Below the pieces are notes generated by a model, which did no database searches, was not told where the DNA came from, and saw nothing but the letters and a program-made list of their open reading frames with translations. From Bacteroidota bacterium (lineage in GTDB: Bacteria > Bacteroidota > Bacteroidia > JAFLBG01), in the NCBI GenBank assembly GCA_017303975.1, contig JAFLBG010000004.1, forward strand, positions 62,001-126,000: a DNA stretch of 64,000 bases, written 5' to 3'. Positions 55,236-56,632 of the stretch are shown here, in pieces. A program made the translations under genes and the position numbers. Position 1 is the first letter of the stretch, and each line of letters starts with the position of its first letter.

Positions 55236-56090
55236 TTATTTTCGCAAAGCCAAGTGTTCGCACAATTGAGCGCACTCCTGTAAAATAGCCTTTATTCGGA
55301 ATGGCTTAATTCCAAGGTTATCTAGTAGATTGTGATTGTCATTAAGGTCCTTACATAAAACAATTGTTTTGTCTAACAATTGTTTTTTTTCCGGTTTTGT
55401 TAGCGATGTAAGGCATGTGATAGGGTATAGACCGTAGGTATCAATAAGGTCTTTCAATCCGTTTTTTATTGGATAATCCCAACCCAATAAATGTAATCCA
55501 GCGCAAGTGCCATATTTCATAGCATCTTCGGAGAAGCGCGTATTTGTTGCAACCCAGCCGGCATACAACTTGTTTGCTAGTTCGGGCTGTTTTTTCCATT
55601 GCCCAATAACATCTAAAAATCTTGACTGAATGTATAGCGGTATTTTTACATCGCAGAAAACTCCTGACTGATTATGGTATTTACATTCTACCATAATATA
55701 GTTGTTTCCCTTTTCTGCAATTACATCAATTTCATGACTAACACACAAACCTTGAGTGGTAACACCTACCGTTGTTTTATAGCCCTGGTAATTTAAAATT
55801 TCGGCAACAAATTTTTCGAATGGATAACCCGATGGCCCAAGACTCATGATAGCTTTCTTTAAATGATATCTTGCGGCTAGATGCCTGGATGTATCTCGCA
55901 ACAAACCAAATGCAATTTGATAAATTTTTTTTGTAGAAATACCTTGATACAATTTAGCATACACCTCACTTAAAATATAATCTATCTGTTCTGTGGTAGC
56001 TCCAGACTGCTTTAAAGAATGGTGTAGTTTTTCTTCTGAAAAATTAGCCTTATCTCCGGAAGCTTTTGTAACAATAAAATTTGTGGTCAT
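55236..56090 (-). CDS. ATP-cone domain fused to a PD-(D/E)XK (Mrr-like) restriction endonuclease domain
   Basis: 284 residues. Residues 1-88 match the ATP-cone nucleotide-sensing domain (FIVTKASGDKANFSEEKLHHSL, in parts, then ISTKKIYQIAFGLLR, as in NrdR and ribonucleotide reductases). Residues about 90-205 match the Mrr/restriction endonuclease type IV fold: the helix FEKFVAEILNYQGY, the metal residue D122 (HEIDVIAEKG) and E135-x-K137 (MVECKYHN). The last ~75 residues look like a helical partner domain. It probably cuts DNA in response to nucleotide state. No methyltransferase or recognition subunit is adjacent. It is convergent with the MFS gene (16 bases) and divergent from the B12-binding gene. 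Confidence 0.82.
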   Translation of the reverse strand: MTTNFIVTKASGDKANFSEEKLHHSLKQSGATTEQIDYILSEVYAKLYQGISTKKIYQIAFGLLRDTSRHLAARYHLKKAIMSLGPSGYPFEKFVAEILNYQGYKTTVGVTTQGLCVSHEIDVIAEKGNNYIMVECKYHNQSGVFCDVKIPLYIQSRFLDVIGQWKKQPELANKLYAGWVATNTRFSEDAMKYGTCAGLHLLGWDYPIKNGLKDLIDTYGLYPITCLTSLTKPEKKQLLDKTIVLCKDLNDNHNLLDNLGIKPFRIKAILQECAQLCEHLALRK

Positions 56091-56224
56091 GTAATGTTTT
56101 TGAACGAGCTAAATATAAGTATCCTAAAAATACGGATTAAAAGGTACACTTTATTTGATTTATCGAACGTTTGGTTGTTAAATACAAATAAGATTATTTG
56201 TAAATTGTAGTAAAATAATTGGAC

Positions 56225-56632
56225 ATGAACAGACCCATACGAGTATTAATTGCAAAAGTAGGATTAGATGGTCATGATAGAGGTGCAAAGGTAATTGCTT
56301 CTTTTTTGCGTGATGCAGGGATGGAGGTTATTTACACCGGATTGCGACAAACGCCCGAGATGGTTGTAAATAGCGCATTGCAGGAAGATGTAGATGTAAT
56401 AGGTGTAAGCATTTTGTCGGGAGCACACATGACTGTTTTCCCAAAAATAATTTCATTAATGAAAGAGAAAGGTTTGACCGATGTGCTGCTTACCGGTGGT
56501 GGAATAATTCCGGAAGATGACATGAATGTATTGAAAAAACAAGGTGTTGGAGAGTTGTTCGCGCCTGGTACCGAAACAAAAATAATTATAGAGTACATTT
56601 CTACTTGGGTAAAAACCAATCGTAAAATATAA
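56225..56632 (+). CDS. Free-standing B12-binding domain protein (methylmalonyl-CoA mutase C-terminal type)
   Basis: 135 residues from ATG 56225 ([20 protein letters not shown]); a TTG at 56219 is also in frame. The DxHxxG motif is DGHDRG, which donates the lower His ligand to cobalt; SILSGAHMT and [11 protein letters not shown] complete the Rossmann-like cobalamin pocket. Proteins of this size are the small subunits of acyl-CoA mutases such as isobutyryl-CoA mutase. The catalytic partner is not in the window. The crotonase gene follows 46 bases downstream. Confidence 0.9.

Follow-up and report, generated by a model that had tools for sequence, protein, structure and literature searches.

An ATP-cone fused to an AF1548-type nuclease: a conserved, under-described family of Bacteroidota with a probable role in energy stress

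Introduction

The closest described relatives of the protein considered here are AF1548 of Archaeoglobus fulgidus (1y88), for which the catalytic residues D38, E51 and K53 and an endonuclease role are both predictions (PMC1821046), and the ATP-cones of NrdR and ribonucleotide reductase (RNR). In NrdR, mutation of K50 or K62 weakens nucleotide binding (PMC9110341). A third point of reference is the Bradyrhizobium gene set bll3117-bll3116-bll3115 (thymidine phosphorylase, PRPP synthetase and metallo-beta-lactamase, MBL), which is induced in micro-oxia (PMC6515984) and depends on FixK2 (PMC9104804).

The window is a stretch of 64,000 nucleotides from a Bacteroidota genome, and the gene under study is a full-length ORF within it (Table 1). 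Its domains are known, but we found no description of their combination, and it represents a real, conserved and under-described family. Our literature search found neither a paper describing an ATP-cone/nuclease fusion nor biochemical work on any member; an earlier mention is possible, for example in the founding paper on the ATP-cone, which is reportedly that of Aravind, Wolf and Koonin (2000).

Results

Domain architecture and fold

The first-pass annotation had read the gene as an ATP-cone and an Mrr-like nuclease in a single chain, a reading confirmed by Pfam across 46 relatives and by Foldseek; the cone and nuclease of its two-domain architecture are present, but it missed a C-terminal AF1548-like_C domain (PF22357). 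On the window protein Mrr_cat (PF04471) scores 26.0 bits over residues 87-141, above its curated cut-off of 21, while the ATP-cone profile (PF03477) falls just under its cut-off of 25.8 over residues 7-69, with 22.4 and 24.8 bits in two Pfam searches. AF1548-like_C, with a cut-off of 23.9, scores 21.4 bits in the full protein and 24.8 bits for the C-terminal piece alone. Among the relatives, matches at E<=0.01 are obtained for the ATP-cone in 46/46 (best 2.5e-9), for Mrr_cat in 45/46 and for AF1548-like_C in 35/46, and since the domain matches recur in this way the three-domain architecture is not a product of chance. A search of the C-terminal domain for a DNA-binding family (e.g. helix-hairpin-helix) gave nothing except AF1548-like_C. 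The NrdR Zn-ribbon has no Pfam match in the window protein, whose cone begins at about residue 5.

Table 1. Features of the nuclease locus, in window coordinates
Feature	Position	Strand	Evidence
ATP-cone / AF1548-type PD-(D/E)XK nuclease gene, 284 aa, ATG start	55236..56090	-	ORF, Pfam, AlphaFold model, Foldseek
ATP-cone domain, residues ~5-80	55851..56078	-	PF03477, RNR R1/NrdR fold match, column counts
PD-(D/E)XK (Mrr_cat / AF1548-type) core, residues ~87-166; E92, D122, E135-C136-K137	55593..55832	-	PF04471, 1y88 match
AF1548-like_C domain, helical, residues 222-275	55266..55427	-	PF22357
Intergenic leader, common to the nuclease gene and a divergent cobalamin-binding-type gene	56091..56218	.	

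Structure prediction, which had been proposed as a check along with the profile searches, gave a confident AlphaFold2 model of the window protein (mean pLDDT 91.6, pTM 0.86) with a nuclease core that matches 1y88. AF1548 is the top match of the nuclease half in a Foldseek search of the PDB (E 2.9e-15, TM 0.80 by target length), and the ATP-cones of E. coli RNR (R1) and NrdR are matched as well (E ~4e-4 to 3e-3). The sequence profile of the nuclease family likewise reaches 1y88 over profile positions 92-276 with an E-value of 1.7e-47. The nuclease half is a member of the AF1548 (1y88) family, and the ATP-cone is the added part.

Catalytic and ligand sites

The nuclease residues named at the outset, D122, E135 and K137, occupy alignment columns that are invariant in 46/46 relatives, as does E92, a fourth invariant residue that is acidic. 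The spacing in the window protein (13 residues from D to E and 2 from E to K) is the same as in the predicted AF1548 site. In the cone, Lys9, a lysine of the phosphate-binding type, is found in 46/46 relatives, Lys21 in 44/46 and Thr53 in 42/46 (alignment columns); by motif position Lys9 is the equivalent of NrdR K50 and Lys21 that of K62. Conservation of these three residues comes close to that of the catalytic site and so points to a ligand site under selection, which from the conserved columns is probably a nucleotide site. The NrdR R51 equivalent is Ala in 28/46 relatives and the equivalent of the adenine-contacting E56 is variable among them, so that ligand specificity is not transferable from NrdR and the ligand, even binding itself, is uncertain.

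The loss of two NrdR ligand positions from a fold that is otherwise kept could mean that the nuclease answers to some other ligand (ppGpp, c-di-AMP or similar), or that the cone is structural and senses nothing. The retention of Lys9, Lys21 and Thr53 speaks against both and we regard them as distinctly unlikely. With Lys9 kept throughout and Lys21 nearly so, the nucleotide-gated nuclease of the original proposal would be the best idea so far.

Family distribution

At least 535 relatives are encoded in the GTDB species genomes scanned. The best 80, chosen by closeness to the window protein and used here as the close-relative set (76 with a clean anchor), are nearly all from Bacteroidota, with some from Balneolota and Chlorobiota. 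Even sampling covered Bacteroidota and its neighbours: the gene occurs in 73/395 evenly drawn genomes of the phylum, in a patchy and chromosomal distribution, and 58 loci from evenly drawn genomes were counted. Relatives are ~50-60% identical across families. Three loci (L025, L029 and L087) carry close nuclease genes across families, with ~0.17 changes per site between Sediminibacterium and Cyclobacterium and with Kaistella in the same clade, a kinship that hints at horizontal transfer. A plasmid scan gives three matches, of which two are full length (Pontibacter and Criblamydia) and are both annotated 'ATP cone domain-containing protein'. No relatives were found in scans of viral contigs and phage records.

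This distribution bears on whether the protein might be a nuclease of phage defence or restriction (Mrr-like, type IV or abortive-infection), triggered by nucleotide changes during infection. The patchiness, the Mrr_cat match above cut-off and a Foldseek resemblance to MspJI and to the ligand-gated CARF nucleases Can2/Cdn1 speak for such an enzyme, but the phage and viral collections hold no match, plasmid copies number only three, PADLOC hits are weak, and identity across families stays at the level given above. When neighbours were clustered, no restriction or defence partner (methyltransferase, defence genes) was recurrent, the recurrent neighbours being metabolic, stress and metal-efflux genes. 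We therefore consider an antiviral role very unlikely, and the phage response suggested by the first-pass annotation is not upheld.

The beta-CASP partner

The most frequent companion of the nuclease is a beta-CASP metallo-beta-lactamase gene, which occupies position +1 or +2 and shares the nuclease's strand in 41/76 of the closest relatives. Because the best 80 had been picked for closeness to the window protein the count was repeated in the even sample, where the gene lies downstream on the same strand, overlapping or no more than 55 bases away (in most cases no more than 45), at 34/58 loci and has no such counterpart at 24/58; the loci are related and neighbour counts are not independent events, yet at least 10 changes on well-supported tree branches are required to account for the 'stress' label. 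An intact HxHxDH motif is present in 74/75 of these neighbours (41 + 34), and the adjacent genes often overlap. From the even-sample counts, the nuclease/beta-CASP pair is the general unit and metabolic genes are accessory. A first impression, that a four-gene nuclease-MBL-phosphorylase-PRPP cassette was the rule, was dropped, the pair alone being general in the even sample. The picture of a lone gene is thus true for the window and untypical of the family, and a lone housekeeping gene, the alternative offered with it, fails at family level, where presence is patchy and a beta-CASP partner is usual. In Flavobacteriaceae a conserved protein of ~84 residues without a Pfam or NCBIfam match (L040:10892-11146 and relatives) is often encoded between the two genes.

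The partner carries Lactamase_B, Beta-Casp and RMMBL domains (Pfam, NCBIfam). The models closest to it are those of the Cas14 and aCPSF1 ribonucleases, whose cut-offs it does not reach; it also weakly matches a ligase-associated exonuclease. Beta-CASP proteins include DNA nucleases, and the last match would suit a nuclease for DNA repair or replication stress, in which the cone reads ATP/dATP balance as in RNR/NrdR, the enzyme trims damaged or branched DNA, and the partner acts on DNA (SNM1/Artemis-like). ATP-cones of known function do read dATP/ATP, and Mrr_cat and Hjc are families of DNA nucleases. Two observations make this reading unlikely: the partner's RMMBL domain is an 'RNA specificity' domain and its closest models are ribonucleases, and no ligase, helicase, polymerase or SOS gene recurs as a partner in the neighbour surveys.

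Stress and salvage neighbours

Of the 76 closest relatives with a clean anchor, 34 have a UspA-type gene upstream of the nuclease, at -1 or -2, and phosphorylase and PRPP synthetase genes are each nearby in ~25/80. The even sample of 58 loci has Usp at 7 and the phosphorylase/PRPP pair at 1; a salvage step is thus accessory, its genes being frequent only among close relatives. Partners in the stress clusters comprise UspA, AMP/thymidine phosphorylase, PRPP synthetase, PPK2, phosphoketolase and acetate kinase. The phosphorylase scores above the thymidine phosphorylase subfamily cut-off and below that of AMP phosphorylase, and the PRPP synthetase above the cut-off of its subfamily model. On the Criblamydia (chlamydial) plasmid all four genes are contiguous and overlapping in one operon, flanked by genes for phosphoketolase, glycogen phosphorylase and acetate kinase.

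Two further associations were observed. Just downstream of the ATP-cone nuclease, three loci (L098:8351-9886, L099:1241-2776 and L100:9002-10531) encode a second ATP-cone joined to a putative glucoamylase domain (PF10091), as if cones had spread into another enzyme of the same cluster. At three others (L105:9558-12260, L106:8578-10234 and L109:7016-9928) a nuclease copy is near a LOG-type gene (Lysine_decarbox, PF03641), twice accompanied by an ABC-exporter-like operon; the Lysine_decarbox/LOG family includes nucleotide phosphoribohydrolases.

A leader palindrome

When intergenic regions from loci rich in stress genes were searched without bias for palindromes with 4-base halves, TGAT-N4-ATCA came out on top, with 13 occurrences against 1.3 expected from order-1 Markov shuffles, from which all expected counts derive. 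The motif is found in 36/439 intergenic regions (2.6 expected) and 8/66 operon leaders (0.53 expected), and in the independent even sample it recurs in 6/58 leaders (0.47 expected, about 13-fold). The full FNR palindrome TTGAY-N4-RTCAA has a single intergenic match, at chance level; the form that is enriched, TGAT-N4-ATCA, has looser flanks. As this motif resembles the FixK2 boxes given in PMC9104804, we infer a Crp/Fnr-type site, and the palindromes probably mark a Crp/Fnr-type regulon of Bacteroidota. In the intergenic regions of loci L018-L097 the motif often has AC..GT-like flanks and also occurs upstream of Usp and other genes. The family's gene neighbourhoods and this Crp/Fnr-type palindrome support the stress-response role first suggested.

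The window copy

In the window genome no beta-CASP protein is found, with control genomes positive in the Pfam search, and no AMP/thymidine phosphorylase of this type, again with positive controls; its PRPP synthetases are distant only. TGAT-N4-ATCA is found neither in the nuclease leader nor elsewhere in the window. In a maximum-likelihood tree the window copy groups (97/88) with L018, L019 and L020, all of which adjoin Usp and/or beta-CASP genes. It is best read as a solitary offshoot that may have left, or outlived, the stress/beta-CASP context, and as this context is absent there the partner-based inference holds less firmly for the window copy. The divergent neighbour (56219-56632) appears to encode a stand-alone cobalamin-binding subunit of the methylmalonyl-CoA-mutase type; by eye its listed TTG start is probably wrong, an ATG 6 bases on being likelier.

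Discussion

The family is probably an energy-controlled stress-response nuclease rather than an antiviral weapon, since relatives usually adjoin stress genes or another nuclease, of RNA type. Our specific proposal, to which we give about an even chance, is that the enzyme is gated by ATP/dATP and serves to turn over nucleic acids during energy or oxygen stress. Its N-terminal ATP-cone would sense adenine nucleotides and, in the energy-replete state, hold the nuclease off or keep it as an inactive oligomer; a shift in ATP/dATP state under oxygen or energy stress would then release it. The released enzyme might cleave RNA, which is favoured by the beta-CASP/RMMBL ribonuclease-like protein as the usual operon partner, or less probably DNA, which is favoured by the Mrr/Hjc similarity of the nuclease itself. 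Where the stress clusters are larger, the products may be salvaged by a phosphorylase / PRPP / phosphoketolase route, and the window copy would act without Usp and beta-CASP partners.

Should the cone gate the nuclease, the protein would provide a direct biochemical link between ATP/dATP level and the destruction of RNA or DNA, without transcription or a second messenger. ATP-cones would then have a role outside ribonucleotide reduction, and the hundreds of genes now named merely 'ATP cone domain-containing protein' would gain a function. A micro-oxia gene set that is poorly understood (beta-CASP, phosphorylase, PRPP synthetase) would also become linked to the turnover of nucleic acids. The repeatable beta-CASP partner makes this a concrete hypothesis that can be tested.

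Compared with described systems, the protein shares with AF1548 the nuclease core, the C-terminal domain and the catalytic D/E/K spacing, whereas the crystallised AF1548 chain begins with the nuclease domain and lacks the ATP-cone. With the cones of NrdR and class I RNR it has in common the fold and the Lys9/Gly12/Phe17/Lys21 pattern, but neither Zn-ribbon nor reductase barrel accompanies its cone, the R51 and E56 equivalents are not kept, and the effector is a nuclease. The Bradyrhizobium bll3117-bll3116-bll3115 set comprises the same partner genes as the stress clusters of the family, although it is without the ATP-cone nuclease, as are the proteobacterial plasmid examples inspected. Finally, the CRISPR ancillary CARF nucleases of the Can2/Card1/Cdn1 type likewise combine a small-molecule sensor with a PD-(D/E)XK nuclease and are weakly matched in fold, while the sensor here is an ATP-cone in place of CARF and no CRISPR context was seen. 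A broader and more tentative view, which we think rather less probable than the proposal above, is that the ATP-cone nuclease and the beta-CASP ribonuclease form a widespread two-nuclease unit in which energy charge would directly switch on nucleic-acid breakdown under oxygen or energy limitation, making it a non-CRISPR counterpart of the cyclic-oligonucleotide-gated nucleases and its sensor the first ATP-cone known to gate a nuclease.
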